This document shows positions 215-15,499 of a DNA stretch of 36,076 nt, piece by piece. The stretch is from Candidatus Magnetocorallium paracelense (GTDB lineage Bacteria > Nitrospirota > Thermodesulfovibrionia > Thermodesulfovibrionales > Magnetobacteriaceae): assembly GCA_029001845.1 (NCBI GenBank), contig JAREWP010000085.1, positions 1 to 36,076 on the forward strand. The letters run 5' to 3'. The translations under genes and the position numbers were made by a program. The notes beneath the pieces were generated by a model that worked only from the letters and a program-made list of their open reading frames with translations, did no database searches and was not told the DNA's origin. Within the stretch, counting starts at the first letter, position 1; the number at the start of each line of letters is the position of its first letter.

Positions 215-294
215 GCTACCGAGGAGTGATTTATGGGTAAAGGGCAGGGCTTGCCCATTCCGCCTGTGGAGCCGCGCTTATCGGCGCTCTCCGG

Positions 295-1179
295 ATGGAT
301 GTGGATAATTTGGGAAAGATATTTTCAGAAGGGATAAAGGATGAAGATTTTGATTTGCCTGCGTTGTCTCATCTCTCCCATATGTTAAATCTTTTTTTTA
401 AAGTCTATTTATACAAGATTTGCGCCGGTGATTTAGGTGAAGATGAAAATGGTGTGAGTATTGAGGCCAAAGACCTGACCAGGAAGAATTATAAGAAGAG
501 CAAAGGGAGAAATGTTTCCATTATTTACGCCGGTGGCGATGACCTGTTTATAGTAGGCGCCTGGAACGAGGTTGTTGAACTCTCCTATGACATTCAAAGG
601 TGCTTCAAACGTTTTTCCGGGCTGGGAATTTCCTGTGGTCTCACACTGCATAAACCCAAATATCCCCTTTACCAGATGGCAAGAATGAGCGGAGAGGCCG
701 AGAGTTTTGCAAAAGAGGATATCAGTCACAACAACGAGTATAGAGAGAAAAACCGGATGGCGCTCTTCTATGATACAAATAAAAGAGCAAGAAGGGAATC
801 GATAGACGCAAGCTTAAGGAACCTCGGTGTTGAAGAACGTGAAGATCGCTATAGATTAACAGTATTATGGGAAGAGATGGAAGAGTTTGTCATTCCCTTA
901 GTAGAAACTTTCATAGAACTTGGGGATATAAAAAATAATCATATTCAATTTCACGCAATGCCTTCTGCTTTCATAGAGAAATTATTTATGGTTGCAGAAG
1001 AGTGGCAAATAAAGGGGCATCTTTATATAGCCGTCATGTCAAGAGTACTCGATCAGGCAAGGAGGGAACTGATGCCCCGGGATTTTGAAAGTATGAAAAA
1101 TCTCTTATATGCCTTTAGTATGGATAATATCAAGAAATTACATATTCCTCTAACCTGGATTTCATATTTAAGGAGGTAA
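295..1179 (+). CDS. cas10: Cas10/Csm1, C-terminal part only (5' truncated)
   Basis: This is the second palm domain and C-terminal helical domain of the large subunit of the type III-A effector. Intact Cas10 makes cyclic oligoadenylates from ATP when the complex binds target RNA. MDVDNLGKIF at the start is the conserved DxDN-LG metal-binding segment of the palm, and YAGGDDLFIVG (about residues 79-89) carries the GGDD catalytic motif. The HD nuclease domain, first palm and zinc-binding region are missing, so the protein is less than half the usual length. The frame is open back to about 241, and the Cas10-like reading (ALIGALRMDVDN) begins around 268, immediately after IS-derived sequence. No convincing ribosome site precedes 295, so the residual frame may not be expressed as a functional protein. 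Identity is certain; activity is doubtful. Confidence 0.9.
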   Translation: MDVDNLGKIFSEGIKDEDFDLPALSHLSHMLNLFFKVYLYKICAGDLGEDENGVSIEAKDLTRKNYKKSKGRNVSIIYAGGDDLFIVGAWNEVVELSYDIQRCFKRFSGLGISCGLTLHKPKYPLYQMARMSGEAESFAKEDISHNNEYREKNRMALFYDTNKRARRESIDASLRNLGVEEREDRYRLTVLWEEMEEFVIPLVETFIELGDIKNNHIQFHAMPSAFIEKLFMVAEEWQIKGHLYIAVMSRVLDQARRELMPRDFESMKNLLYAFSMDNIKKLHIPLTWISYLRR

Positions 1180-1185
1180 TCGATT

Positions 1186-1674
1186 TTGAGTAAAGACTAT
1201 AATCAAAGTACATATAACTGTTTCAATAATGAGATTCAATCCATAAAGGGAAACAAAATTGATTATATAAAGGCGGAATTAAAAAAAGCGGATACCTTTT
1301 CCGAGTTCTCAATGACGTCGGAAAAGACAAAAAAGGTAACGGCTTATTCATTTATTGTCGCCGGAGAGATGGTAAAGGAAGGGTTGACCATAACGCAGCT
1401 AAGAAGATTCTACAACTATATCAAAAAGATGCAATATGAGATGCAAGGGGGAGAACATCAGGAGGTCCAAAAAGTAAAAGCAAAACTGACCCTGCTGCTT
1501 CCGAAACTGGCCGGCGCTGCTACTAAAAAAAAGGAAGTAAAGCCCTTATATGAGATTATCTCCGCCTGTATTGAGAAAGGAAATTTACCTGAGAAGAAAG
1601 ATATCCTCTTTTTTATCGAATTTCTCGAGGCTGTGCTCGATTATTTTGAAGCCCTCTCTAAAGAGCTGAAATAG
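1186..1674 (+). CDS. csm2: Csm2, small subunit of type III-A effector
   Basis: Small alpha-helical subunit (162 aa) that forms the inner filament of the Csm complex and contacts the crRNA-target duplex. The central LTITQLRRFYNYIKKM and LLLPKLAGAA segments match the conserved Csm2 core, followed by the C-terminal helix IEFLEAVLDYFEAL. A TTG start at 1186 is chosen because a perfect AAGGAGGT sits 8 nt upstream (1170-1177). The gene begins 6 nt after the cas10 stop and is part of the csm operon. The N-terminal ~40 residues are polar and variable, as is usual for the family. Confidence 0.9.
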   Translation: MSKDYNQSTYNCFNNEIQSIKGNKIDYIKAELKKADTFSEFSMTSEKTKKVTAYSFIVAGEMVKEGLTITQLRRFYNYIKKMQYEMQGGEHQEVQKVKAKLTLLLPKLAGAATKKKEVKPLYEIISACIEKGNLPEKKDILFFIEFLEAVLDYFEALSKELK

Positions 1675-1724
1675 ATATGAAGAGAAATGACTGTAACCTC
1701 TATCAATAAAAAAGGAGTTGGAAA

Positions 1725-2585
1725 ATGGCGTATCAAATAAACCTTTTAGGCTATATTACGATCAAAGGAGTTATCAGATGCATAACCGGAATTCATGTTG
1801 GGGGAAGCTCCGATTCTATTGACAAGGGAGGAATCGACAGTCCGGTTATTAAAAATCCGGTTACCAATCAACCCTATATTCCCGGGAGCTCACTGCGTGG
1901 CAGAATGCGCTGTATATTGGAAAAGGCGACAGGAAAGCATTTGGACAAACTGGTTTCCGGTATCTATATCCATAAAGGAGAACAGCATAATGAGGGTGAA
2001 TCCTGCGAGATATGTAGAAGCTTCGGAACGACCCATAAAAAGGTCACCATTCCCTCACCGCTGATTGTTCGGGATAGTTTGCTGACAAAAAGAGCTCAAA
2101 ATGAATATATGGATGGAAGGCTCCCTGTTACAGAGGTCAAGACAGAGACTGCCATCGACAGAATCACCTCGGCGGCTCACCCCAGGGTGATTGAGCGTGT
2201 ACCTGCCGGTGCGGAGTTTTCATTCGAGTTCACTTACAGAGTTCAGTCAAACGGGAATGGAAGTTTTACCACACAATCCAATCAAGAGGTGCGCGACGAT
2301 ATAAACAATATCTTATGGGCATTGGAAATAATAGAAAAACACGACGGCCTTGGCGGACATTCGGCAAGGGGATATGGGCAGGTAAAGTTTGTGATAACAG
2401 GCATGGAGTCAAAAAAGGTCGATTTAACAACCAACGCCTTTAGTGGAGGGAGTCATGGCTTTCAGTATACATTGACACATAAAGAGGATGAAGCGACTGA
2501 CTACGATACCATAAAAAAGAATTTTGTCAGTAAGATAGAGTTTCCCGAACATTCTGCATTAAAAGAAGAGAGTCCCGCTGAATAA
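1725..2585 (+). CDS. csm3: Csm3, backbone RNase subunit of type III-A effector
   Basis: Cas7-family RAMP protein that forms the backbone along the crRNA and cuts target RNA at 6-nt intervals. The N-terminal block GIHVGG...GGIDSPVIK contains the catalytic aspartate, here D38, aligned to D33 of the Streptococcus thermophilus protein. It is followed by YIPGSSLRGRMR, the glycine-rich thumb signature, and by TEVKTETAIDRIT and the C-terminal SARGYGQV loop. A Cys-rich insert (CEICRSFGT) near residues 85-93 is a likely zinc-binding element. The protein is 286 aa, longer than the ~220 aa Streptococcus form because of insertions. It starts 50 nt after csm2 behind AAAGGAGTTGG. Confidence 0.95.
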   Translation: MAYQINLLGYITIKGVIRCITGIHVGGSSDSIDKGGIDSPVIKNPVTNQPYIPGSSLRGRMRCILEKATGKHLDKLVSGIYIHKGEQHNEGESCEICRSFGTTHKKVTIPSPLIVRDSLLTKRAQNEYMDGRLPVTEVKTETAIDRITSAAHPRVIERVPAGAEFSFEFTYRVQSNGNGSFTTQSNQEVRDDINNILWALEIIEKHDGLGGHSARGYGQVKFVITGMESKKVDLTTNAFSGGSHGFQYTLTHKEDEATDYDTIKKNFVSKIEFPEHSALKEESPAE

Positions 2586-2607
2586 AGATCGCCGGAAACA
2601 GAAAAAT

Positions 2608-3630
2608 ATGGAACGATATATAATGAAATTTCGCTTTCACAACTCCCTTCACCTTGGCAGCGATATGCCAGGAGTGGGAGAGGAGGCGTCAAAAACAATC
2701 CTCCATTCCGATACGATTTTCAGCTCCATATGCAATGTGTGGGCGCAAATCGACCGGTATTTACAAAAGCAGAATTGTATCTCATTTCAGGAGATGTTAC
2801 AGCTTTTTGTAAATGGCGTTCCCCCTTTTAAATTCTCCTCCGGATTCCCGTTTTTTAATAATGACTACTATCTCCCCAAACCGATGCGAGACCCATCCAT
2901 GCTTTATGATGACTATATCACCAAAAGCATTTATGGTAAAAAAGTAAAGAGGTTACAATTTTTGAAAGCGCAATATTTCAGAGAGTGGATGACAGAGAAT
3001 AAACAAGAGAGCGGCATGGCTCATGATCTTTCAGATGAAAACAAGAATCGACCCTCCTTCGGGATAGAGTTGCTGCTACCCAAAACTCCAGTCAACCGCC
3101 TCAACAATGAGTCAAACATCTACCACACCAGCCAATTCTATTTTTACGACTACTGCGGACTTTACGTGATTGTGGAACTGAATGAAAATATTATCTCCAA
3201 AAGTCAATTCTGCACTCTCCTCGACCATCTTGGCAAATACGGCTTTGGGGGAAACAGAAGTACAGGGCAGGGGAGTATACAGGGCGACATTATATTTGAA
3301 AAGGCGCCTAAAGAGATAACACAACTCTTTACAATGAAATCAGAGATGGGTTACTGCCTGCTGTCACTCTATTACCCTTTTAATAATTCAATAGTCCGCA
3401 ATGCGACAGAGTATTCCCTTACACTGAGAAAAGGATGGATCGGCTCTTACTCCGCCAACAAATCATTAAAGAAAAAGACAGCTTATATGTTTAGCGAGGG
3501 ATCCCTCTTTTCAGACATCGATAAAGGCAGACTTGTAGATACCAAACCGGATAAGTTTACGGAACATGATATTTGGCAATATGGGTATGCCATGACCATG
3601 CCCTCTAAAAAGGAGATAGAAATTGTCTGA
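2608..3630 (+). CDS. csm4: Csm4, crRNA 5'-handle-binding subunit
   Basis: Cas5-group RAMP that caps the crRNA 5' tag and docks Cas10. MKFRFHNSLHLGS is the typical first beta-strand and glycine signature, SDTIFSSICNVW follows as in Csm4, and KYGFGGNRSTGQGSI is the C-terminal G-rich loop. An internal ATG at 2623 (five codons later) gives the more family-like N-terminus MKFRF and may be the true start; neither start has a strong ribosome site. The gene overlaps csm5 by 8 nt, implying translational coupling. Length (340 aa) is normal. Confidence 0.92.
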   Translation: MERYIMKFRFHNSLHLGSDMPGVGEEASKTILHSDTIFSSICNVWAQIDRYLQKQNCISFQEMLQLFVNGVPPFKFSSGFPFFNNDYYLPKPMRDPSMLYDDYITKSIYGKKVKRLQFLKAQYFREWMTENKQESGMAHDLSDENKNRPSFGIELLLPKTPVNRLNNESNIYHTSQFYFYDYCGLYVIVELNENIISKSQFCTLLDHLGKYGFGGNRSTGQGSIQGDIIFEKAPKEITQLFTMKSEMGYCLLSLYYPFNNSIVRNATEYSLTLRKGWIGSYSANKSLKKKTAYMFSEGSLFSDIDKGRLVDTKPDKFTEHDIWQYGYAMTMPSKKEIEIV

Positions 3631-5275
3631 ACCGTCTCATAAATATCAAACTTATGAAATCGAAGTGAACACTATTTCTCCAATACATATTCAAGGGAAA
3701 AAGATCGAATATGGAGAGGGAATGGTCAAATTGAATCGAAGAGATGATAAAAAGGGAAGAGATTACGCCTATCTGATAGATAATGACATATTATGTGAAT
3801 GGCTCTATGAACTGGACGAAAAGAATTTAACATGTGTAAACGCTTACGCAAAGTTCTTTTCCGAAGAGCAGGTAAAGAAATTTAATGATCTAAATAGAAG
3901 AAAACCTTATTTAGAAGATTTTCTTAAAGCATATAAAATTGGTAATAAAACATTACTCTCATTATTGGAGGCCCTGAGTCAGGATGATAAATATTTTAAA
4001 ATTTTTAAAGGACGCGCATTTATAGGAAACAAGAACAATTTCATTCAAAACCGAAAAGGGGAATATTACATACCCGGGAGTTCTTTGAAGGGGGCATTAA
4101 GAACTGCTGTGTTATATTCAATTATAAAAAGTATAAAAGATAAAGACCCTGCATGGTATTGCAAAAATGTAATCCTGCCTGTTCTTGGTAACGTAAGAAA
4201 ATTTATAAACGCTAAAAAAGACAAGAATAAATTGAAAGAGCACTTTGCTAAAGAGATAGAAAAGAAAATATTCAAAAACTTTGCTCCTTATGATGAGGAT
4301 ATGAAAGATACGCAAGGTAACCCAAATGATGAGCAGAGAGATTTGATGAGGATATTTAAGATAAGTGATATAAAAATCAGGAGAGATAGTTTACCTAAAG
4401 AAGAAGAGATAAAGGTAATTACATTAAAAGGTAACAATGAACCTTATGAAAAGTATAGAGCCCGGGTAGAATGTTATGAATCAAGTGAAACCTTGAAAGC
4501 CAGGATGTCGATAGACATCTATCTAATGGAAAGATTTTATAGGAATTATGAGAAGAGTAATTCTCCTTTGCATTTTCCTTTTGATTTGAAAAACCCGATT
4601 TCTTCAATAGAGAAGATGTTGAAAGAGTTTGCAGAAGATCAGTGGTACGAAGAGAGAAAATACTACAATAAAGATATGTTTCATTTGATTGATAATGAAC
4701 TAAACAGAAGTTATGTTTCAAAACCATACAACTGTCTGGAGTACGGCACGGTTAGCAATCCCAGGGGAGACCTTTTCTTTACCAATAAAAGTAGAAGAAA
4801 CGGAACATATATAAGAGACGATAGCTTAAAACTTTTCAAAGACAAGCAGGAAACATTGCATAAAGATAAACAGATTGTCAGAAAAGCAGGACAGAAAGTT
4901 CTCTACCAGATCGATAAAGAAAAAGATGGTAAAAAAACATTTGCATCTCAGATTTTTTCCTTTCAATACAACAAGAATTCTCAATTTTCAAGAGCAGATG
5001 TTCCCTTTGTCAAAAATTTAAACCCAATTAAAGAGTTTTATGACGATAGTAACATCCCCAATATCCGTCTTGGATGGGGGACTCAGTTGTTAGGTATGAC
5101 GATAGATCTACTGCTTGATCCAATATTAAGAAAGTTGATCAGGGATGAAGTATTATTGCAGAGCATACGAAATCTTCCCGCACCAAAATCGAGAAGAATC
5201 GTACTGAAAGAAAAGAGTCCATATAAACCTCTCGGCTGGTGTAATGTCGTATTTAAGGATACAAATAATAGCTGA
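3623..5275 (+). CDS. csm5: Csm5, crRNA 3'-end subunit of type III-A effector
   Basis: RAMP protein that caps the 3' end of the crRNA and is needed for its maturation. The N-terminal EVNTISPIHIQGKK and the YIPGSSLKGALRTAVLYS segment (about residues 150-167) are Csm5 signatures, and IRLGWGTQLLGMTIDLL near the C-terminus is the second glycine-rich motif. At 550 aa it is longer than common Csm5 proteins (350-450 aa), because of a Lys/Glu-rich middle. A TTG start at 3623 lies 8 nt inside csm4 with AGGAG at 3611, and is the only start compatible with the fold. The coding sequence is very AT-rich. Confidence 0.9.
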   Translation: MSEPSHKYQTYEIEVNTISPIHIQGKKIEYGEGMVKLNRRDDKKGRDYAYLIDNDILCEWLYELDEKNLTCVNAYAKFFSEEQVKKFNDLNRRKPYLEDFLKAYKIGNKTLLSLLEALSQDDKYFKIFKGRAFIGNKNNFIQNRKGEYYIPGSSLKGALRTAVLYSIIKSIKDKDPAWYCKNVILPVLGNVRKFINAKKDKNKLKEHFAKEIEKKIFKNFAPYDEDMKDTQGNPNDEQRDLMRIFKISDIKIRRDSLPKEEEIKVITLKGNNEPYEKYRARVECYESSETLKARMSIDIYLMERFYRNYEKSNSPLHFPFDLKNPISSIEKMLKEFAEDQWYEERKYYNKDMFHLIDNELNRSYVSKPYNCLEYGTVSNPRGDLFFTNKSRRNGTYIRDDSLKLFKDKQETLHKDKQIVRKAGQKVLYQIDKEKDGKKTFASQIFSFQYNKNSQFSRADVPFVKNLNPIKEFYDDSNIPNIRLGWGTQLLGMTIDLLLDPILRKLIRDEVLLQSIRNLPAPKSRRIVLKEKSPYKPLGWCNVVFKDTNNS

Positions 5276-5306: not shown

Positions 5307-6335
5307 GTGAAACAGCAAATAATCAATAAAAGAAACGAAATATATCGATTATTCGGGGTTCCCGGCGAGGAGTTAAAAAAATTGATCGGAAACGAGGAGT
5401 CTGAAGATAAAGGTGCTTTCAGCTATCATATTAAAAAGTTGCAAAACGATAATAATCTCAAAAGAGAAGTGAAAGGGAATGAAAAGCGTTATTGGGAGTA
5501 CTATTTTACAGAAATATTTCCGATTTCATTAAGGATATTTCAGGCAATGGCCCGGTATCAGCTCTCTGACGGAGCATTAAATGCCATATTTAACAATAAA
5601 GAATGGTACCTCCCTCGGATCATACCCGATTTTGTAACTAAAAGATATGATGTGCTTATATCCCTTGTAGGGTTCTCACCGGAACCAATTATGCACACAA
5701 TCTGCACTCTACAGCCGGTAGAAAAGATATATTTAATCTGCACTTCCGATTCAATTAATTTTTACGGTGCAAATTATGAAAAGTTTATCTCAAGCTTTGT
5801 CAATCAAAAGAGCTTAAAGCTGGATGTTTCTGATGATCCTGTTGAGTTAAGCGGAATCGATATGGACAAAATGAGAGTTAATGTGGAAACAAAGGAGATA
5901 GACTCCGTTTTTTCCGATCGGATTATAGAGGAGATAGGGGAAATCATAGAAAACGAGAAGGGAAAGAGGATTGCCATCGATATAACAGGAGGCAAGAAGA
6001 TCATGCTTGCCGGGGCATTTACGATTGCCTCTATACAATCCATTGGCGCCTTTTATGTTGATTTTCAAGAGTATGACACTAAGACAGGAAAACCTGTATA
6101 CGGCACCGAATTTCTGAATAAAGTAAAAAATCCGTTAGCCGGTTACATATTGAAGAAGAATGGTCTTTTTGAGTATTTCAAGAGGGGCATAATTGTGCAG
6201 GATGATGAAGATTATGATAAATTTCTAAAAGTCAGGAGTGAATTGAATGATGTTGAACAACAAGCGATAGATGATCTAGTGTATGGTCAACCGAACCCTG
6301 ACATCGAGCCCAGGAAAGATGCACGATCAAAGTAA
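5307..6335 (+). CDS. CARF-domain protein with winged-helix-like N-terminus
   Basis: Likely sensor of cyclic oligoadenylate made by Cas10. Residues 1-70 (GAFSYHIKKLQ..NLKREVKGNEKRYW) look like a winged helix of the ArsR/MarR type. Residues ~114-260 are a Rossmann-like CARF domain: DVLISLVGFSPEP as first strand and ligand loop, IYLICTSDS, then IAIDITGGKKIMLAGAF, the conserved DxTGGxKxM loop. No HEPN RxxxxH motif and no recognisable nuclease domain is present, so it is not a Csm6/Csx1 RNase. It may be a transcription regulator of the Csa3 type or the sensor for the membrane protein encoded next. A GTG start is set by AGGAGGT at 5294-5300. It begins 31 nt after csm5 and overlaps the next gene. 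Confidence 0.75.
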   Translation: MKQQIINKRNEIYRLFGVPGEELKKLIGNEESEDKGAFSYHIKKLQNDNNLKREVKGNEKRYWEYYFTEIFPISLRIFQAMARYQLSDGALNAIFNNKEWYLPRIIPDFVTKRYDVLISLVGFSPEPIMHTICTLQPVEKIYLICTSDSINFYGANYEKFISSFVNQKSLKLDVSDDPVELSGIDMDKMRVNVETKEIDSVFSDRIIEEIGEIIENEKGKRIAIDITGGKKIMLAGAFTIASIQSIGAFYVDFQEYDTKTGKPVYGTEFLNKVKNPLAGYILKKNGLFEYFKRGIIVQDDEDYDKFLKVRSELNDVEQQAIDDLVYGQPNPDIEPRKDARSK

Positions 6336-7650
6336 TAAACCTTTAGCATACTCCTATATTTGGAATTACTATAATAGATTTAAAGATGAAATAGAGCATA
6401 AGGGCAACTATCGCTATAAGCCTCTTCATTGTTATATCAGTGGCAGTTACAGCAGAAGTTGGGAGGATTTTGAAAAAGAGGTCGGCGAACCTGAGCGATA
6501 TGAGTGGGATGACGCCCTCTATTTCTATCACAAATCGAGATTAAAAATTGCGTCAACAATAGGTTTTAAAAGAACGGTTGAGAATAAAATTGATCATATT
6601 TGTTTCGATAATGTAAGAAAAAGCATAATTTGGCTTCTTGATTTTTATGAAGATCCGAATAAAGGGAACTCCTTTTTTGAATTTAACGGTCTTGATAAAG
6701 ACTCGGAAATAGAAAAAACGCTCTATTCTATTTTATCAGGAAAGAAATCCACAGATAATATCAGGGAAATAGAAGCAAGAATAACACGTAAAGAGCGTCA
6801 AATTACGGATTCATTTTCAAAGCTTCTTCTAAGGCGATACCATTTAGACTGTGTTAAGGATATAGAAATAAGCTTTATTCATAACAAATTCACCGGTTGG
6901 TTATTCAAATGGATTCCAACGGAGAGGAACTTATTAATAAATTTTTTAATTCTATTGGTTATAATTATCTTTTTCGTATCTACCCTGTCAAACTTTCCTG
7001 TGGAATGGGGAGCTCCAATACCTGGAAAAACCATATTCCCCCTTGCCTTTTCAGATGATTTTAGAGATGTGGACAGTCAGGGGAATAGTCTCACATTTGA
7101 GATTCGGAAGGACTCACTAGAAATCTATTTGGAGTGGACTGTTTTTATAATTTTTTTCCTAATTCTCTTTTTTCTGATTAAACATCAAAACACGATAAGG
7201 CTATGGATACCTCGTTTGTTTGGCAGTATTATTGTAGGCTATTTGCCTTTAATCGTAGGAGATGAGTTGTGGAAATTCGCTATTCTTGCGGACAGGTATA
7301 CGATTACGGCAATAGTATTCTTGTCCTTGTTTATCAGTTTTTTATATATTCTCCATGAGATTTCCAATATTGTTGGCTATGGTAAGGATGTTTTCAGAAG
7401 GTCAGTGAACATATTTTCAAACGGTGTTTTGTATTCCTTTTCCATAGGTATTATCTTATTGGATATTTTAAACGCTCATTTTGTTAGTAACATGAACGAT
7501 CCTCAGATATTTAGAAGTTCTCATTTACACAGTGGTATATTAGGAGTAATCGATCCTAAAGTTTTGCTCGTATTCTTTCCACTGGCTCTTCTTATAGGAA
7601 TATTTGTACAGATTATATGGGATGACAAACCGATTACCGAGCCTTTATAG
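6319..7650 (+). CDS. Unrecognised type III-associated membrane protein, six predicted helices
   Basis: I do not recognise this family. A soluble N-terminal region of ~200 residues, rich in Tyr/Trp and charged residues, precedes six hydrophobic segments. Numbered from an upstream ATG at 6283 they lie at about 217-236, 281-299, 308-327, 339-358, 380-398 and 425-446. A ~45-residue polar loop with SDDFRDVDSQGN lies between the first two. No CARF, HEPN, PIN or SAVED motif is visible. It overlaps the end of the CARF gene by 17 nt (ATG at 6319) or 53 nt (ATG at 6283), so the two are probably coupled. By analogy with membrane effectors of type III systems (Cam1, CorA-like) it may be a pore or membrane effector working with the CARF protein; this is inference from position only. 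A terminator follows directly. Confidence 0.6.
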   Translation: MHDQSNKPLAYSYIWNYYNRFKDEIEHKGNYRYKPLHCYISGSYSRSWEDFEKEVGEPERYEWDDALYFYHKSRLKIASTIGFKRTVENKIDHICFDNVRKSIIWLLDFYEDPNKGNSFFEFNGLDKDSEIEKTLYSILSGKKSTDNIREIEARITRKERQITDSFSKLLLRRYHLDCVKDIEISFIHNKFTGWLFKWIPTERNLLINFLILLVIIIFFVSTLSNFPVEWGAPIPGKTIFPLAFSDDFRDVDSQGNSLTFEIRKDSLEIYLEWTVFIIFFLILFFLIKHQNTIRLWIPRLFGSIIVGYLPLIVGDELWKFAILADRYTITAIVFLSLFISFLYILHEISNIVGYGKDVFRRSVNIFSNGVLYSFSIGIILLDILNAHFVSNMNDPQIFRSSHLHSGILGVIDPKVLLVFFPLALLIGIFVQIIWDDKPITEPL

Positions 7651-7684: not shown

Positions 7685-7704
7685 AATGCCCGAAACAGGC
7701 AAAT

Positions 7705-8084
7705 CGATTTGCGTACTTTTTAAAAATGCCTTAAAAAGTTTGTAAGTTGTTGAGATTTAAAGGAAAATTCCCTTTTATGGCCTTTTTGAGCCTTCATGAG
7801 GGGGCAGTAAAAAGTACGCAAATGCCGTTTTCGGGAGGTCTGAAAAATCGATTTGCGTACTTTTTAGAATTGCCTAAAAAACAGGCAGAAAAAATCCTTT
7901 AAAATCAAGGGGTTAGAAGTGACGAAAATTGTCATTTCCCGAAAAGTACGCAAATGCCGGGTTTTGAGGAAAGGGGCGATCGATTTGCGTACTTTTTTTC
8001 CCTGAAAAATCAATGACTTAGCTTAAAAAAGGGCAAAGTTCGCAAGGTTTTGAATATTAAAATGGATCGATTTGCGTACTTTTT
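7705..8084. repeat. Six interspersed copies of CGATTTGCGTACTTTTT in leader 1
   Basis: Forward copies lie at 7705-7721, 7849-7865, 7981-7997 and 8068-8084. Reverse-complement copies, conserved over the 15 bases AAAAAGTACGCAAAT, lie at 7809-7823 and (with one change) 7941-7955. Each reverse copy is followed by a forward copy starting exactly 40 bp later, so the pairs can form 15-bp stems with ~25-nt loops. I recognise no known motif in it; candidates are regulator or integration-cofactor sites, or transcript hairpins. Confidence 0.9.
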
Positions 8085-8112
8085 GTTAGAATTTGAAGGA
8101 ATTCAGTAATAT
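8083..8112 (+). promoter_or_regulatory. Candidate promoter of CRISPR array 1
   Basis: TTGTTA (8083-8088) and TAATAT (8107-8112), spaced by 18 bp, would start transcription about 65 nt before the first repeat. Both hexamers are unchanged in leader 2. The -35 hexamer overlaps the end of the last leader element (8068-8084), so a protein bound there would touch RNA polymerase. Sequence match is moderate. Confidence 0.45.
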
Positions 8113-8184: not shown

Positions 8185-9023
8185 ATTTGAACCATTAGAC
8201 CCGTTGATAGGGGATTGAAACAACATTATTTTTTTCATTTTTAATCTCCTTTTTATAGAGCCACTTATTTGAACCATTAGACCCGTTGATAGGGGATTGA
8301 AACTTCCTGTGTCTCCCAGTTTAAGTCGCCAAGTAATCCTTTAACATTAAATTTGAACCATTAGACCCGTTGATAGGGGATTGAAACTCCCTGTCCCCTG
8401 TTCTACTTGAAAAATCTTCTCCTTATGTTGCTATTTGAACCATTAGACCCGTTGATAGGGGATTGAAACACTAGCGTAAATTTTTCCCACCTCACTTTCT
8501 TTAATGTATTTGAACCATTAGACCCGTTGATAGGGGATTGAAACACGCCCTCCTCATATAAATTTTTGTCTAAATTTTAATTTGAACCATTAGACCCGTT
8601 GATAGGGGATTGAAACGAATCCGGGCTAAGTAAAAGGGTCTTTGCTGTAAGTGCAGCTGCACTATTTGAACCATTAGACCCGTTGATAGGGGATTGAAAC
8701 AAGTTATTGCAATTTCAAAGATAATCTTATTGAGCCACATTATTTGAACCATTAGACCCGTTGATAGGGGATTGAAACTATTTGGTGAGCAATAGAATTA
8801 CCTGCTTCAATAATTAATTCATCATTTGAACCATTAGACCCGTTGATAGGGGATTGAAACGTGTTTCACCATAGTAACCTCCTTGGTGGTATATTTTATT
8901 GGTTTATTTGAACCATTAGACCCGTTGATAGGGGATTGAAACTGCAATAGTTGCATCATACTGAGTTTCTGTAGATTCCATTTTCAATTTGAACCATTAG
9001 ACCCGTTGATAGGGGATTATACT
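8185..9023 (+). CRISPR. CRISPR array 1: 11 repeats of 37 bp, 10 spacers
   Basis: The repeat begins ATTTGAACC and ends AGGGGATTGAAAC, giving the type III-like 8-nt crRNA handle ATTGAAAC. Repeats start at 8185, 8267, 8351, 8433, 8508, 8580, 8664, 8742, 8824, 8906 and 8987. Spacers are 45, 47, 45, 38, 35, 47, 41, 45, 45 and 44 nt. The first ten repeats are identical; the last loses its 3' end (GATTATAC instead of GATTGAAAC), marking the leader-distal end. Transcription is therefore on the plus strand from the leader at 7655-8184. Complements of several spacers contain ribosome sites and start codons of unknown genes. Confidence 0.98.
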
Positions 9024-9048: not shown

Positions 9049-9077
9049 TTGATTTAAGTTTGTATAGTTGATATAAT
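9049..9077 (+). promoter_or_regulatory. Sigma70 promoter of the csx3/cyclase/RT-cas1 operon
   Basis: TTGATT (9049-9054), a 17-bp spacer, then a perfect TATAAT (9072-9077). It lies just past the degenerate last repeat and would give a ~75-nt leader before the csx3 ATG at 9158. It lets the accessory/adaptation operon be transcribed independently of array 1. Confidence 0.7.
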
Positions 9078-9157: not shown

Positions 9158-9397
9158 ATGAAAATAATTGATCTGAGCACTCTATATAATGAGCGAGCTA
9201 AAATTTCCGAGCTTGATTTGTATATTAAAAAAGCTAAAAATTTAGCCGGAGAAGGTAATGATATTGTCTTAACAGGCCCCGCTCCTGTGTGGTTGTACAT
9301 GAAAACAGGTCATGCTCTTCATGGTATTGCAACGAAACTGTTTTACAGAAGCCCTGTTACCGGGGACATCGAAATTTTCAATCATACACCTTATTAA
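9158..9397 (+). CDS. csx3: Csx3 (Crn3-type ring nuclease), stand-alone
   Basis: A 79-residue protein consisting of one Csx3 domain. The start MKIIDLSTL and the core DIVLTGPAPVWLYMKTGHALHG followed by IEIFNHTPY resemble Csx3, a small protein shown in Archaeoglobus to degrade cyclic tetra-adenylate, which would switch off CARF effectors. The ATG at 9158 is preferred over an in-frame TTG at 9113 because it gives the family-like MKxxDL start. The usual GRGPxW motif reads GPAPVW here, so activity may differ from the neighbouring domain. It ends 2 nt before the cyclase-Csx3 gene, whose last ~85 residues are its clear relative. Confidence 0.78.
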   Translation: MKIIDLSTLYNERAKISELDLYIKKAKNLAGEGNDIVLTGPAPVWLYMKTGHALHGIATKLFYRSPVTGDIEIFNHTPY

Positions 9398-9399
9398 AT

Positions 9400-10260
9400 A
9401 TGAACTGGCTTGAACTGCACGAAAACGTAAAAATACCGGATGTTTTTATATTAAATCTGGATATAGCGGGATCAACGAAAATCTCTTCTGTTTCTCATCC
9501 TGCAGAGCATCAAAGTAGAATGAAGGAGTTGCATGGCAGGATAGACAATCTATTCGCTGAAGATAAGAGATTTTATTCAGATTCATGGACCGGTGATGGC
9601 CTTGTTGTACTGTTTAGTGATAATAATGATGTTGCCGATGATTTAATCGGAAAAGCTATTGAAATCCTCTTAATAGAAAAGCCGGAAAGTAACAAATCCT
9701 TTTTCCCGGAACCTGTCAGTATAAGAGTTGGAATTGCTATGGGGAATATTTATTTTTCCAGAGATATTGGTGATATCATATGCGAGCCAATGAATATAGC
9801 AGGAAAACTTCAAAAAGCATGTCCCGATGATGGAGGTGTATTGATAAACGAAAATGTAATGAATTACATAAAGGATAAAAAGCTTCTTAATGGATTTCAA
9901 TATAAGGAAGTTTTAATTAATAATAAGACCCATATATGTAATTTTCTTTCAATCGATGCTTCTAAAGTTTATCCAAAGAGATTAGGTCAACATAACAAAG
10001 TTGAAATTAACGTGCAAGAGCTTTATGGTAATTATCCCGATGCAAAGGCTGATGCGAAGAAAATAAATGAATATTTAAAAAAGGCGAAAATGATAGCCGG
10101 ACCTTTTCCTCCGAATACTAAAAAAGAGGTGGTTTTAACCGGTAGAGGGCCAATCTGGCTTTATTTGGTTTTGGCCAGAGAGTTTCATGGCGTGGCTGCA
10201 AAACTTGTTTATAGTTCTCCTAAAGAAGAAGATGTCGTCATCTATGATCATGTAAGTTAA
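9400..10260 (+). CDS. Class III nucleotidyl cyclase fused to a C-terminal Csx3 domain
   Basis: A 286-residue two-domain protein. Residues ~10-188 are a class III cyclase: NLDIAGST supplies metal ligand D21, DSWTGDGLVVLF supplies D66, and IRVGIAMGNI...EPMNIAGKLQKA is the helix with transition-state Asn (N132). The Arg expected four residues later is Lys (K136), and the Lys that selects ATP in adenylate cyclases is replaced by Ser (S62), so the substrate cannot be predicted. Residues ~200-286 are a Csx3 domain with TGRGPIWLYLVLAREFHG and YDHVS. The ATG at 9400 follows the csx3 stop by 2 nt. Plausibly it makes one cyclic nucleotide and removes another, or the ring-nuclease domain reads cyclic oligoadenylate and gates the cyclase. 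This fusion is unfamiliar to me. Confidence 0.82.
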   Translation: MNWLELHENVKIPDVFILNLDIAGSTKISSVSHPAEHQSRMKELHGRIDNLFAEDKRFYSDSWTGDGLVVLFSDNNDVADDLIGKAIEILLIEKPESNKSFFPEPVSIRVGIAMGNIYFSRDIGDIICEPMNIAGKLQKACPDDGGVLINENVMNYIKDKKLLNGFQYKEVLINNKTHICNFLSIDASKVYPKRLGQHNKVEINVQELYGNYPDAKADAKKINEYLKKAKMIAGPFPPNTKKEVVLTGRGPIWLYLVLAREFHGVAAKLVYSSPKEEDVVIYDHVS

Positions 10261-10277: not shown

Positions 10278-10778
10278 ATGGAAACATACATAACAATTGT
10301 ATCGTCAAAAACATTCGAGACTATCAACCCTTTCTGGGCGGCTCTGGAAAAGGAGTGGATTCGTCCCACATCCTGCACTCTTCTGTATGTACCGGAACAT
10401 AAAAAAGAGTGCAATATTATCGTAAAATGGTATGAGGAAATCGTCCGGGAGTATATGGGAGCTGAAGTAAAAACAGAGCTGCAAATATTTGACGATGAAA
10501 ATATTCCCCGGTTCATCGATCTTATAAAAGGGCTGATACTCAAGGATAGAAAAGCCAAGAGAAAGGTGATCATAGATGTAACCGCAGCGGAATGGAACTA
10601 TATCCCTGCCACGCTGATGCTGCTTGCCGATGAAAACAAAAAGGCAGTCCCATCGTTACTGTATCAGCAATACTCAAGCCCCCAATATAGCGAACTGCCG
10701 TATCCTCTGATACCTTATACGGAGCAGAAATTATACGACCTTCTCAATATGAAAGAGCTGGAAGGACTCTCTTTATGA
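10278..10778 (+). CDS. Small CARF-like (Rossmann) protein
   Basis: A 166-residue single-domain protein. ITIVSSKTF (residues 5-13) is a first beta-strand followed by a loop, SCTLLYVPEH is the second strand, and KVIIDVTAAEWNYIPATLML (about 105-124) has the position and shape of the CARF DxTGGxK loop and following helix, although the Gly-Gly-x-Lys is replaced by Ala-Ala-Glu-Trp. This suggests a divergent CARF domain whose ligand may differ from that of the CARF protein at 5307. It has no effector domain of its own, and its stop overlaps the start of the PIN gene (ATGA at 10775), so the two products probably act as a pair. CARF assignment is tentative. Confidence 0.55.
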   Translation: METYITIVSSKTFETINPFWAALEKEWIRPTSCTLLYVPEHKKECNIIVKWYEEIVREYMGAEVKTELQIFDDENIPRFIDLIKGLILKDRKAKRKVIIDVTAAEWNYIPATLMLLADENKKAVPSLLYQQYSSPQYSELPYPLIPYTEQKLYDLLNMKELEGLSL

Positions 10779-11884
10779 AGGAGTATACCCTTCCCTATTT
10801 AAATCTGGCTATATTTTTTAACCCTCTGTTACGTTCAGGTAATGATATTCATTTCGAGCTTGTTTTGCCTCTTCTCGATAACCTGGAGGTCTGTAACCTC
10901 ACAATTACGACAGAAGGGCCTGTAATTCAGAATTTCGTAACCTTTAACAGCTATAACAGGATATACAAGAAGATCGCACAGGCAGGGAGAAAATATATAT
11001 CGGATGAGCTGCCTGATTATAATCAATTACAGGATGCGCTGGTTTATAGTGCGATTGTGAAACCTTCCGGTCTTGATCTGCTCTTTGAATATATTCATGA
11101 AGCTTCAAAGCAGTCCGTCATAAGAGGGGGCGATGTATATTATATTGCCTTTGACACAAATATCCTTATGGACAGAATCTATACAAATTACCTCCGCGAT
11201 TATAGCGACGCACCGAATATCGATTTTATTTTATCGGAAACTGTGAGGTCTGAACTGACCAACAGGAAAAACAAGATCAACAAAAAGACGATCAATGATC
11301 TGGCGGAAGCCTTTGGGAAGAGTGCACGCTGTTTCTCCAATCAAAATGTGCTGGCCGACAGGCGAAGATATATCGGATTTCTGGAATTTAATAAAATTCG
11401 ACATGAAACGGACTGCGATCAACTCAAACCTTCGAGATCAATCGATGACAAAGATGAAGAGATCATTGAAACCTACGCGAAATTTGCAGTGCAAGGCTAT
11501 AATCGAAAAGTTCTCCTCATATCCAGAGATAATGAGTTTATCAGGATGAGTCCGAGCCTGCCTGATGTGATTCCCATTGTTATTGAAAACAGAGTCAGAG
11601 ACAGGAGCATAAAGCAAATGAGGTGCGGATATAATAAGCTGTTTTCTTTTATTTACCACCTGTCGGTTTTATATGGAGAAATTGTACTTCAATTAAAAGG
11701 TCACAATATCTATAAATGTTACGGAGTGTGGCCGCAAAAGAATGTGAGACAGTGGGAAAACAATCATATAAAGGTCTCAGCAAACAGTGAACTCCCTTAC
11801 ATCACATCATTGGATCATCATACCAATATTCTCAAAAAAATGAAATACAAAAGGGAATCGCGGCGTTTCCCGAAGACAGATTGA
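10775..11884 (+). CDS. PIN-domain nuclease, type III accessory
   Basis: A 369-residue protein with a PIN ribonuclease fold in its middle. YYIAFDTNILMDRI supplies the first acidic residue (D127), ILSETVRSELTNR supplies E155/E160, SIDDKDEEIIETYAK supplies D224-D225, and VLLISRDNEFIRM supplies D252; this is the complete set expected for an active PIN nuclease. The N-terminal ~115 and C-terminal ~95 residues match nothing I recognise. The first ~115 residues may bind the CARF-like partner, whose gene overlaps by 4 nt. It most likely cleaves RNA when the partner binds a nucleotide signal. RT-cas1 begins 12 nt downstream. Confidence 0.75.
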   Translation: MKEYTLPYLNLAIFFNPLLRSGNDIHFELVLPLLDNLEVCNLTITTEGPVIQNFVTFNSYNRIYKKIAQAGRKYISDELPDYNQLQDALVYSAIVKPSGLDLLFEYIHEASKQSVIRGGDVYYIAFDTNILMDRIYTNYLRDYSDAPNIDFILSETVRSELTNRKNKINKKTINDLAEAFGKSARCFSNQNVLADRRRYIGFLEFNKIRHETDCDQLKPSRSIDDKDEEIIETYAKFAVQGYNRKVLLISRDNEFIRMSPSLPDVIPIVIENRVRDRSIKQMRCGYNKLFSFIYHLSVLYGEIVLQLKGHNIYKCYGVWPQKNVRQWENNHIKVSANSELPYITSLDHHTNILKKMKYKRESRRFPKTD

Positions 11885-11896
11885 TTTTACTTTGGT

Positions 11897-14284
11897 ATGG
11901 CCTCCCTGTTTAAAACCATTCTTGAATTCGATACTCTTCATGCCGCCTGGCTGCAAGTAAAGAAAAAGGGATCCGCCGGAGGAGTGGACGGAAGGGATAT
12001 AGAATCATTCGATCTGAAGGCGGAAAAATATCTGTCTGACCTTAAAAGAGACCTTGAAAAAGGCGCCTACACACCGGAACCATACTACTCTGTCGATGTA
12101 TCCAAATCTCCCGGCTCTTCTGAAAAGAGAAATCTGGGACTTCCCACCATAAGAGATAAAATCGCTCAACAAGCCGTTAAAACAATTATAGAGCCTTTGT
12201 TTGAAAGAAGTTTTCTCGATGTAAGCTATGCATATCGTGCTTCTAAAGGGGCTGCCAGGGCAATCAGAAGAATTCGTCACTTAGTAAATCACGAAAAACG
12301 TACATGGGTGACAATCTGCGATATAGACAAGTTTTTTGACACCATAGATCATGAAATATTGTTCAATAAAGTGGAGGAAAAGATATGGGAGCCTGAGATA
12401 ATGGAACTGATTAAACTGTGGGTCAAAATCGGAAATGTAGACAGAGACGGCAAGTGGAGAGACAGGGTAAAGGGCGTAGCTCAGGGGGGAATTCTCAGTC
12501 CCTTGCTCAGTAATATCTATTTGGATTCATTCGATAAATTCATAACAGAGAAAGGGTACGGCTTGGTTCGTTATAGTGATGACTTCATAATCCTCAATGA
12601 GGATGAATCGACGGCGAAAAAGGCCCTTAATGACGTACTTGAGTATTTGACCAAAAGTCTTTCGCTGACTTTGAATCCCGGTTATACGGTAAGGAATATA
12701 GAAAGAGGCTTTACTTATATGGGCTTTTTCTTTCAGGGAGAAAATCTCAAAATTGACAATCAAAAATTCAAGAGAATAAAGACAAAAATAAAATATATCT
12801 GCATAAACAACATATATAAACCGATACATGAATTTATAAAAAAGATGAATCAGGAAATAGAAGGAGTGCTTAACTACTATAAACCTCTTGCGCCGACACA
12901 CCAGATAATGGCAATCGATGAATATATAAAACTTCAGATATCCATTTTTATGAGCAGAAAGAAGAACAGCGGGGAAGTCGGAACAAAAGACAAAGCACTG
13001 GAGATACTGAAGCAGCTAAAATATTTACAAAACAGATCGCACAGCGAGTCACTGGAATATATGAATGAAATTGTTGCCTTTGCCTGGAATAAAAGAGAAT
13101 CCTTCAATAACAGATCAGGTACTGAAAATAAAAGGGCTCAAAGTAAAGAACAGGAGAGTGATGAAAATGAAGAAACAGAGGAGAAATCGGCATCTTCCCG
13201 ACAAACCTCTCCTGAGCCGGAAAGTAAAGTAGAGAGGAAGAAAAAGGAGTATTATAAAAAGAGGATTCTAACCGGAAATTTGATTATTACGACGCCATTT
13301 TGTTTTATCGGGAAGAAAAAAGAAAGAATCGTTATCAGAAAGGGAAGACAGATTATTAAAGAGATCGCTGTTACAAAAATTGAGCATCTATCCATAAAGG
13401 CAAGGAGCGTATCTCTCTCATCCGATGTGATCGATCTCTGTTTAAGTCACAAAATACCCATTGATTTTTTTAATTTTAAGGGAGAGCCGACTGCAAAGAT
13501 TTATCTTCCCCTTATGCCGGATACTACAATCGGTATTGCCCAATTGAAGGCCTTTGCCAATGAAAAATGTTACTCCATCGCCTCCTCTATCGTTGAGTCA
13601 AAGATAAACAATCAGATAAACTTACTGAAGTATTTCCTTAAATATAGAAGAAAGATCGATCCGGTCTTTAGTGAGGAGACAGAAAGCAAGATCGAAAAAA
13701 TGGAAAAAAATATGGAGAGCGTTTCTGAAATAGAGAAGACGGATGATATGGACCTCTATCGAAACAGATTAATGGCAGCCGAAGGCCAGGCTTCGGCCCG
13801 TTACTGGGAGGTGATAAAGGAACTGCTTAAAGACGATGTGGAGTTTATAAAGAGAGAAAGGCAGGGCGCAAGGGATATTGTAAACTCATGCCTCAACTAT
13901 GGATACAGCATGCTCTATCCAAGGATATGGCAGGCTGTAATACAGGCGGGTCTCAATCCGATGATCAGTTATCTGCATAAAGAGCAACCCGGAAAGCCGA
14001 CTTTAACCTTTGATCTCATAGAGGAGTTCAGGCAGCAGGTAGTAGACAGAACGGTATTTTCGATGTTTACAAAGGGAACTGAAATAGAGCTTACTCAGGG
14101 AGAACTCTCTGCATCATCGAAAAAAGTGCTTGTGGAAAACATAATCGAGAGATTAAAGACAGAGACCGGGTTCAGAAAACAGAAAATGACCTTCGATGAG
14201 ATCATTCTCCATCAGGCAAAGGCTCTGGCTGAATATTTATTGGATAAAAAGAAGAGCTACAATCCCTTTTTAGGAAAGTATTAA
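11897..14284 (+). CDS. cas1: Reverse transcriptase-Cas1 fusion
   Basis: A 795-residue fusion that, with Cas2, inserts spacers and can acquire them from RNA. Residues 1-~300 are a group II intron-like reverse transcriptase: AGGVDG, GLPTIRDKIAQQA, CDIDKFFDTID (D142), GVAQGGILSPLLSN and RYSDDFI (D228, D229; YSDD in place of the common YADD). A maturase-like helical region continues to ~400. A charged linker (~401-450, rich in Glu/Ser/Lys) joins the Cas1 domain, where AAEGQASARYW (E629), YLHKEQPGK (H694) and TFDLIEEFR (D706) give the metal-binding triad. There is no N-terminal Cas6 domain, unlike some relatives. It is followed after 1 nt by cas2. Confidence 0.97.
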   Translation: MASLFKTILEFDTLHAAWLQVKKKGSAGGVDGRDIESFDLKAEKYLSDLKRDLEKGAYTPEPYYSVDVSKSPGSSEKRNLGLPTIRDKIAQQAVKTIIEPLFERSFLDVSYAYRASKGAARAIRRIRHLVNHEKRTWVTICDIDKFFDTIDHEILFNKVEEKIWEPEIMELIKLWVKIGNVDRDGKWRDRVKGVAQGGILSPLLSNIYLDSFDKFITEKGYGLVRYSDDFIILNEDESTAKKALNDVLEYLTKSLSLTLNPGYTVRNIERGFTYMGFFFQGENLKIDNQKFKRIKTKIKYICINNIYKPIHEFIKKMNQEIEGVLNYYKPLAPTHQIMAIDEYIKLQISIFMSRKKNSGEVGTKDKALEILKQLKYLQNRSHSESLEYMNEIVAFAWNKRESFNNRSGTENKRAQSKEQESDENEETEEKSASSRQTSPEPESKVERKKKEYYKKRILTGNLIITTPFCFIGKKKERIVIRKGRQIIKEIAVTKIEHLSIKARSVSLSSDVIDLCLSHKIPIDFFNFKGEPTAKIYLPLMPDTTIGIAQLKAFANEKCYSIASSIVESKINNQINLLKYFLKYRRKIDPVFSEETESKIEKMEKNMESVSEIEKTDDMDLYRNRLMAAEGQASARYWEVIKELLKDDVEFIKRERQGARDIVNSCLNYGYSMLYPRIWQAVIQAGLNPMISYLHKEQPGKPTLTFDLIEEFRQQVVDRTVFSMFTKGTEIELTQGELSASSKKVLVENIIERLKTETGFRKQKMTFDEIILHQAKALAEYLLDKKKSYNPFLGKY

Positions 14285-14285
14285 T

Positions 14286-14585
14286 TTGGCTAAAAACGCT
14301 TATTTTACAGTTGTCGCCTATGATATTAAAAACGATAAGCGAAGGACAAAGGTTATGAACAAATTGCTGGACTATGGCGGATTGAGGGTTAACTATTCGG
14401 TATTTGAGTGTTTGCTTTCTATGCAAAAGTTAAAAAAGATGAAGCAAGAGGTTAAAGAACTGATAGATAAAAGCAAAGACAACGTCAGGTACTATACGCT
14501 TTGCGAATCATGTATAAAACTGATGGAAAACCAGGGAGTAGAGCCGGTGTCCGCTACTGAGGGGCAGGAGACTCTTTTTGTATAG
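14286..14585 (+). CDS. cas2: Cas2, adaptation complex subunit
   Basis: A 99-residue ferredoxin-fold protein that bridges Cas1 dimers during spacer integration. FTVVAYDIKNDKRRTKV (D13 at the first strand end) and VNYSVFECLL are the conserved strands. The C-terminal tail VEPVSATEGQETLFV is extended and may contact the fused RT-Cas1. A TTG start at 14286, 1 nt after the RT-cas1 stop, gives the proper first strand, and expression is probably coupled. The terminator at 14589 closes the operon. Confidence 0.95.
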   Translation: MAKNAYFTVVAYDIKNDKRRTKVMNKLLDYGGLRVNYSVFECLLSMQKLKKMKQEVKELIDKSKDNVRYYTLCESCIKLMENQGVEPVSATEGQETLFV

Positions 14586-14614: not shown

Positions 14615-14633
14615 ATGCCCGAAACGGGCAAAT

Positions 14634-15013
14634 CGATTTGCGTACTTTTTAAAAATGGCTTAAAAAGTTTGTAAATTGTTGTATTTAAAGGAAAATGCCC
14701 TTTTTATGGCATTTGGGAGCTTTGCCGAGGGGACTGTAAAAAGTACGCAAATGCCGTTTTCAGGAGGTCTGAAAAATCGATTTGCGTACTTTTTAGAATT
14801 GCCTAAAAATCAGGCAGAAAAAATCCTTTAAAATCAAGGGGTTAGAAGTGACGAAAATTGTCATTTTTAAAAAAGTACGCAAATGCCGAGTTTTGAGGAA
14901 AGGGGTGATCGATTTGCGTACTTTTTTTCCCTGAAAAATCAATGACTTAGCTTAAAAAAGGGCAAAGTTTGCAAGGTTTTGAAAGTAAAATTTGATCGAT
15001 TTGCGTACTTTTT
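14634..15013. repeat. Six interspersed copies of CGATTTGCGTACTTTTT in leader 2
   Basis: Forward copies lie at 14634-14650, 14778-14794, 14910-14926 and 14997-15013. Reverse-complement copies lie at 14738-14752 and 14870-14884. Order, orientation and 40-bp reverse-to-forward spacing match leader 1 exactly. The second reverse copy is perfect here while it carries one change in leader 1. Confidence 0.9.
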
Positions 15014-15041
15014 GTTAAAATTTGATCGAATTCAGTAATAT
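15012..15041 (+). promoter_or_regulatory. Candidate promoter of CRISPR array 2
   Basis: TTGTTA (15012-15017) and TAATAT (15036-15041) with an 18-bp spacer, the same as in leader 1, about 70 nt before the first repeat. The -35 hexamer again overlaps the last leader element. Confidence 0.45.
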
Positions 15042-15112
15042 CAAGGTGTTGCCGGTTGTTCTTTGAGAAGACAAAAGTAGTAGGATTGCAGGGGATGCCC
15101 ATGAAATATGGT

Positions 15113-15394
15113 ATTTGAACTATTAGACCCGTTGATAGGGGATTGAAACTTCGTTGCCTTTATCAAATGCAACTCATCAATCGCTTTTTATTTGAACTAT
15201 TAGACCCGTTGATAGGGGATTGAAACAGCTTTGCAGGTACTCTAAATTTTTTATTCGCCAACGGGTTATCCCCATATTTGAACTATTAGACCCGTTGATA
15301 GGGGATTGAAACAGTAATCACCATCCCCGTCCATCAAACGCCATCCCTCTACCGTTCATTTGAACCATTAGACCCGTTGATAGGGGATTGAAAC
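15113..15394 (+). CRISPR. CRISPR array 2: 4 repeats of 37 bp, 3 spacers
   Basis: Repeats start at 15113, 15190, 15276 and 15358; spacers are 40, 49 and 45 nt. The repeat is that of array 1, but the three leader-proximal copies carry T instead of C at position 9 (GAACTATTAG). The last copy has the array 1 sequence. Because new repeats are copied from the leader-proximal one, the change must have arisen there and spread with later acquisitions. The complement of spacer 2 begins exactly with ATG and reads open to its end. Confidence 0.98.
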
Positions 15395-15499
15395 GGCGTG
15401 CTATGCCTGAAGTGAATCAGATATTGGTGAGTTAATGATTTAGTCGCTTATAAGTAAAATTGTGCGCAAAAAAGCAACAATATTTGTAACTGTTCACCG

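Follow-up and report, generated by a model that had tools for sequence, protein, structure and literature searches.

An uninterrupted open reading frame in the window (the whole 36,076-nucleotide stretch of DNA analysed) joins a class III nucleotidyl cyclase domain to a Csx3 domain within a type III CRISPR operon. The two domains, the operon, an orthologue in a second genome and the residues kept or lost in the two active sites are directly established. The reading favoured here, with a probability of roughly 40%, is that a Csx3-derived sensor of cyclic oligoadenylate controls a divergent, metal-dependent class III cyclase, the protein acting as a relay. Its fuller form is put forward more tentatively: the Csx3 domain would have changed from an eraser into a reader of the messenger and would switch on the cyclase, relaying the alarm into a cyclic mononucleotide read by the many cNMP receptors of the host.

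Architecture and genomic setting of the fusion

Both halves of the encoded protein are recognised by Pfam above the respective cut-offs, residues 12-119 by PF00211 (28.4 bits, cut-off 21.9) and residues 238-285 by PF09620, Cas_csx3 (32.5 bits, cut-off 21). This agrees with the first-pass annotation of this DNA, which had read residues 200-286 as Csx3 and the part before them as a class III cyclase, and which had placed the motifs NLDIAGST and WTGDG and the Asn-helix correctly. In PADLOC the top Csx3 model is PDLC01844 (E 6e-21), with a weaker match to PycC, and a sequence match (E 5e-5) links the Csx3 half to the solved Csx3/AF_1864 entries 3wzi and 6vjg. Against TIGR02579, the NCBIfam equivalog for Crn3/Csx3, the protein scores 32.7 bits, far below the cut-off of 55.4 bits. 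Modelled by AlphaFold2 with an alignment of Csx3 relatives, the Csx3 half has a pLDDT of about 90, and when ordinary cyclases supply the alignment most of the cyclase half lies at 80-90; these models are monomers in which the relative placement of the two halves is unreliable. In a fold search the cyclase half resembles guanylyl and adenylyl cyclases (best-quoted match 3et6, Z 20.9, 2.5 A, 175 residues), and the modelled cyclase fold is near-complete. Among the fold matches listed no Csx3 structure was found, because the cyclase half fills the list with cyclases.

Table 1. Features of the locus, with positions in the window
Feature	Position	Strand	Details
3' part of cas10/csm1 with GGDD	250..1179	+	TIGR02578 E 3.6e-58, profile 499-753
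csm2, csm3, csm4, csm5-like RAMP genes (III-A)	1186..5275	+	
CARF protein, CARF1 class	5307..6335	+	PADLOC PDLC01818 E 6.8e-37
Membrane protein, 455 aa	6283..7650	+	weak PADLOC Mem_01 match PDLC01155 E 1.5e-7; no Pfam family
CRISPR array 1	8185..9023	+	11 repeats, about 37 nt, last degenerate at its end
Stand-alone Csx3-like gene	9158..9397	+	79 aa; PADLOC PDLC01844 E 1.7e-31, PDLC01040 E 1.6e-13
Cyclase-Csx3 fusion gene	9400..10260	+	286 aa; PF00211 and PF09620, orthologue, AlphaFold2, fold search
N-terminal class III nucleotidyl cyclase domain	9400..9957	+	about residues 1-186
C-terminal Csx3 domain	9994..10257	+	about residues 199-286
CARF-domain protein (CARF_m1 class)	10278..10778	+	PADLOC PDLC01972 E 8.5e-18
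PIN-domain nuclease, CARF_PIN-like	10775..11884	+	PF13638 E 4e-6; PDLC01973 E 3.9e-31
Reverse transcriptase-Cas1 fusion	11897..14284	+	PF00078 and PF01867
Cas2	14286..14585	+	PF09827 E 1.3e-22
CRISPR array 2	15112..15402	+	4 repeats, type as in array 1

The genes from the stand-alone csx3-like gene through the fusion, CARF, PIN and RT-cas1 to cas2 follow one another without large gaps (Table 1), the stop codon of the csx3-like gene lying 2 nt before the start of the fusion. Two arrays of one repeat type flank this tight operon and the csm genes lie upstream. As the operon includes RT-Cas1 and Cas2 and is enclosed by arrays, the Csx3 genes sit among adaptation genes. The stand-alone Csx3-like protein scores 19.3 bits against Pfam Csx3, slightly below the cut-off. 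Of the upstream genes, csm2 and csm4 are named by PADLOC and 3623-5275 is a RAMP gene by Pfam (PF03787), while the names csm3 and csm5 are inferred from gene order and phmmer matches to other loci. The type III context recognised earlier is borne out by csm2, csm4, the GGDD piece of cas10, the two arrays, RT-cas1 and cas2; that reading had the type III linkage right but missed the stand-alone Csx3-like gene and the interruption of cas10. The identified neighbours of the fusion are CARF, PIN and cas genes, with no recognised PycTM or PycTIR among them, and no dedicated receptor for a cyclic mononucleotide is recognised in the operon by Pfam, NCBIfam or PADLOC.

Some further features of the locus were observed. 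Near-identical leader-like modules at 7701-8100 and 14630-15028 precede the two arrays, one each, and every module carries four copies of CGATTTGCGTACTTTTT at spacings equal in both (144, 132, 87). The CARF1 gene overlaps the membrane-protein gene (5307-7650), and the two may form a two-gene effector. CARF_m1 and PIN (10278-11884) are encoded by separate, overlapping genes; the PADLOC model CARF_PIN describes one fused protein. A promoter-like site at 9049-9077 is only a candidate, as such sites are no more numerous in the region than expected by chance.

The window begins within a multi-copy repeat that is present in five near-identical copies in the genome. Cas10 homology starts right behind the repeat, at about position 250 and at position 499 of the 753 in the profile, and the frames in front of this piece carry stops. 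The local cas10 thus keeps its GGDD palm and its front part is missing, a state seen at the edge of a contig. The interrupting repeat is apparently an insertion sequence, to judge from its repetition and a transposase-like reading frame. The HD part and the first palm part of Cas10 were not convincingly found elsewhere in the genome by profile. With the local cas10 interrupted, cyclic oligoadenylate would have to come from a second type III system on another contig; such a III-D-like locus, with a GGDD Cas10 and, upstream, a protein that is weakly CARF-PDDEXK-like, is found on contig C101 (28000-45850, L132). No further Csx3 above the cut-off was found in the source genome. The same genome has about 20 class III cyclases and 49 matches to cNMP-binding domains. 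Receptors for a cyclic mononucleotide therefore exist in it, and this repertoire makes a readable product plausible.

Active sites of the two halves

The two halves were aligned separately, the cyclase half in a set that adds both fusions to 17 ordinary cyclases of the order. The metal-binding D21 and D66 and the catalytic N132 are invariant in this set (19/19), which suggests that metal-NTP chemistry is still used. Binding of metal and NTP by the cyclase half is likely, cyclisation uncertain. The transition-state Arg, present in all 17 ordinary cyclases, is replaced by K136 in the fusion and by His in the orthologue; where the ATP-selecting Lys would stand, the two proteins have S62 and Glu, respectively, and at the second base-selecting position D125 and Arg. 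The alignment confirms the replacements of Arg by Lys and of the ATP-selecting Lys by Ser noted in the first-pass annotation. Two residues before the first metal Asp both fusions have Asn, where ordinary cyclases have Phe, Met or Ser, and the beta-hairpin arm preceding N132 is shortened. The base of the product is not callable from sequence.

A product of the Pycsar type, a cyclic pyrimidine nucleotide, had been raised as one prospect for this cyclase. The fusion domain matches PycC models at 4.8e-6 (PDLC02369 E 2e-6 in the PADLOC run) and the orthologue does not match them, whereas for five ordinary cyclases of the order, serving as controls, the best PycC match ranges from E 2e-19 to 6e-36. 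Membership in Pycsar was rejected as unspecific on these grounds, and the proposed pyrimidine product is left with no specific support.

A hallmark of Crn3/Csx3 ring nucleases is Mn-dependent cleavage of cA4. In Csx3 of A. fulgidus, the mutants D69A and H60A have no activity left and R71A has very little; H80 is important and H57 is conserved (PMC7371418). The protein sandwiches cA4 between dimers, in a site built from two faces of different dimers (PMC7371418). In the fusion, H60 and H80 correspond to H263 and H284, both invariant in 29/29 sequences, and T247, G248, R249, I252, H263, K275 and H284 are kept or similar. They include the positions that contact cA4 (T247, G248, R249, I252 and H284), with the contact loop reading T-G-R-G-P-I. 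R46 is also kept and R71 is represented by K275. The equivalent of D69 is Ser (Ser or Ala across both fusions) and that of H57 is Arg in both fusions. Given the absence of D69 and H57, the fusion is unlikely to be a canonical Crn3 ring nuclease, and degradation of cA4 by this half, as suggested in the first-pass annotation, is weakened accordingly. With the contacts kept and the catalytic D69 and conserved H57 lost, the Csx3 half is more in keeping with a sensor than with a fast nuclease; its residues fit a sensor that binds the messenger and cuts it slowly or not at all. A nearly invariant D278, in the same loop as the D69 position, could substitute for that residue.

The 27 stand-alone Csx3 copies all have H57, H60 and H80, and none of them has D69, R46 or R71. 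Judged by these residues the fusion and the stand-alone protein are in part complementary, the fusion having the contact face and the stand-alone protein the histidine face. As the site of A. fulgidus Csx3 uses faces of different dimers, a mixed site of fusion and stand-alone protein is a testable idea, and is taken only as such.

Distribution and descent

A full-length orthologue is present in a Nitrospiraceae MAG (G182, JAAYUK010000246.1, L036:747-1592), and the family of this genome is the second family of the order to keep the fusion. The two proteins are 40% identical along 281 aa, and as the independent orthologue has both halves, their union is no chance juxtaposition. A GTG start at 9289 for the fusion was rejected, since the alignment with the orthologue begins at the ATG at 9400. 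By Pfam the Csx3 half of the orthologue scores 27.1 bits, above the cut-off, and its cyclase half 12.7 bits, below it. The gene stands at the head of a III-D locus, which encodes a GGDD Cas10d, several CARF proteins and a CARF-PDDEXK protein. The locus also contains a stand-alone Csx3 (L036:13657-13932) as well as a Cas6-like protein, RT, Cas1 and Cas2, these four named by resemblance. Common to the two fusion loci, III-A versus III-D, are the fusion, the stand-alone Csx3, RT, Cas1 and Cas2.

Linkage of the fusion to type III loci elsewhere, set as a check in the first-pass annotation, was found in just a single further genome, making two cases. Among 396 sampled genomes of the phylum, 39 have matches to the protein (the source included), nearly all to Csx3 alone, and a single genome beyond the source has the full fusion. 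A cyclase-only profile run over 230 genomes of the class returned the same two fusions and no third, and a scan of genome contigs with narrow peptide patterns returned only the Nitrospiraceae orthologue. Spread on phages or plasmids was considered and rejected: neither the phage nor the plasmid collection holds a match to the full protein, and IMG/VR holds Csx3 alone, without the cyclase, and no relative of the full fusion.

A clade of stand-alone Csx3 proteins of about 80 aa is common at type III loci of the phylum. Other CRISPR genes accompany stand-alone Csx3 in 17 of 20 neighbourhoods compared (L063-L082), with a GGDD Cas10 within the fetched stretch in 11, and in none of the 20 does an unfused cyclase lie beside Csx3. 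From this survey, stand-alone Csx3 is an ordinary companion of type III systems in the phylum and the fusion a rare form. In the Csx3 tree the 27 stand-alone proteins form a clade that excludes the domains of both fusions, with support 92/90; the tree is one of short sequences, its bootstrap had not settled, and the domain of the orthologue forms a long branch in it. Lying outside that clade, the fusion domain is unlike a recent copy of its neighbour, and an origin by recent duplication of the neighbouring Csx3 is unsupported by the tree.

A possible relay and its alternatives

In the proposed mechanism, Cas10 would synthesise cyclic oligoadenylate upon recognition of target RNA and the Csx3 half would bind it, the ligand possibly being sandwiched against a second Csx3 face, belonging either to the fusion itself or to the stand-alone neighbour. 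Binding would pair two cyclase halves head to tail, and the paired cyclase would make a 3',5'-cyclic mononucleotide. Class III cyclases need such a head-to-tail arrangement. Ligand-driven pairing would be a natural switch, as these enzymes function as dimers (PMC11224242) and ligand binding makes Csx3 oligomerise (PMC7371418). Messenger relays also have a precedent, since a catalogue of CRISPR loci links CARF proteins with RelA and with CYTH (adenylyl cyclase/thiamine triphosphatase) (PMC10910872). We infer the ligand binding, the oligomer-driven activation, the catalysis and the nature of the product. Counting against the relay are the loss of the transition-state Arg and the base-selecting residues that differ between the two fusions, as expected if cyclisation is no longer selected; the short hairpin, the cyclase half of the orthologue under the Pfam cut-off, the lack of a recognised receptor in the operon, the interrupted local cas10 and the finding of only two natural examples also weigh against it. 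The relay is nevertheless weakly favoured over a timer and over a reused binding fold.

The main rival to the relay is that the cyclase fold does not cyclise and instead binds NTP and metal, either regulating the Csx3 half or reporting the energy state, so that the protein would be an NTP-gated sink or timer for cyclic oligoadenylate. This is possible, if rather doubtful. Both fusions have lost the transition-state Arg and their base-selecting residues vary freely while the metal Asp and the Asn are kept, a pattern that fits such a regulator, as do the shortened hairpin and the weak Pfam score of the cyclase half in the orthologue. An NTP-binding partner for Csx3 has precedent as well, since fusions of Csx3 to an AAA-ATPase of unknown function are already known (PMC12409355). 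However, the three residues on which metal-NTP chemistry depends most are all kept at an identity of 40% between the two proteins, and the positive charge of the missing Arg could still come from Lys or His.

A ring nuclease of altered chemistry is unlikely. Here K275 and D278, replacing R71 and D69, would cut the cyclic oligoadenylate together with H60 and H80, and the cyclase half would tune or scaffold the site; in a possible variant the site would be composite, the stand-alone Csx3 supplying the H57-H60-H80 face. The invariance of H263 and H284, the conservative change of R71 to K275 and the position of D278 in the same loop are consistent with this, and for a composite site so are the reciprocal residues (H57 without R46 and R71 in the stand-alone protein, the reverse in the fusion, with R46 kept and R71 as Lys) and the presence of both genes at both fusion-bearing loci. 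Yet D69 and H57 are missing, the A. fulgidus mutants D69A, H60A and R71A show how far activity depends on such residues (PMC7371418), and the score for TIGR02579 does not reach its cut-off. Against the composite site, stand-alone copies occur in most loci without any fusion and therefore do not need it. Least probable of all is that the gene is decaying in a broken locus, as a remnant devoid of present function. The multi-copy repeat that interrupts the local cas10 would agree with decay, but the frame of the fusion is intact, its active-site residues are conserved and properly spaced and the rest of the operon is open; moreover, the genome has a second GGDD Cas10 and the orthologue adjoins an intact Cas10.

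In descriptions of type III systems, nucleases, proteases and membrane proteins make up most of the outputs. CARF and SAVED domains account for nearly all of the sensors described (PMC12669027). If the relay is true, a Csx3-type sensor with a nucleotide cyclase as its output would add a sensor class to type III systems, and one immune messenger would be rewritten into a housekeeping one. Even should the relay fail, the catalytically altered Csx3 clade, which lacks D69 and has H57-H60-H80 fixed, occurs at many type III loci of the phylum and may consist of messenger-handling proteins.

No account of a cyclase-Csx3 fusion was found in a library of open-access papers. Its closest counterparts are known in parts. 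Like Crn3/Csx3 of A. fulgidus (AF_1864), the C-terminal half is Csx3 by Pfam and sequence and keeps the equivalents of H60, H80, G45, I49 and R46; unlike it, the fusion lacks D69 and H57, has Lys for R71, misses the equivalog cut-off and carries a cyclase fold. The Csx3-AAA fusions likewise combine Csx3 with an NTP-using domain in a type III context (PMC12409355), but here the partner is N-terminal and has a class III cyclase fold, not that of an AAA ATPase. Of the profiles, the C-terminal Csx3 of CARF-HEPN-Csx3 proteins (PADLOC PDLC01844) comes closest to both Csx3 domains of this locus, although the fusion has neither the CARF nor the HEPN part. With PycC of Pycsar (PDLC02369) it shares a class III cyclase fold, in PycC one used in anti-phage defence; among PycC cyclases the base-recognition residues differ from clade to clade and the two metal Asp do not change, and the specificity residues of the fusion differ from those reported (PMC11224242). 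The proposed relay shares with the CARF-linked RelA and CYTH systems of CRISPR loci the concept that a cyclic oligoadenylate signal feeds a second nucleotide messenger (PMC10910872); there the sensor is CARF or SAVED and the output RelA or CYTH, whereas here the sensor would be Csx3 and the output a class III cyclase.
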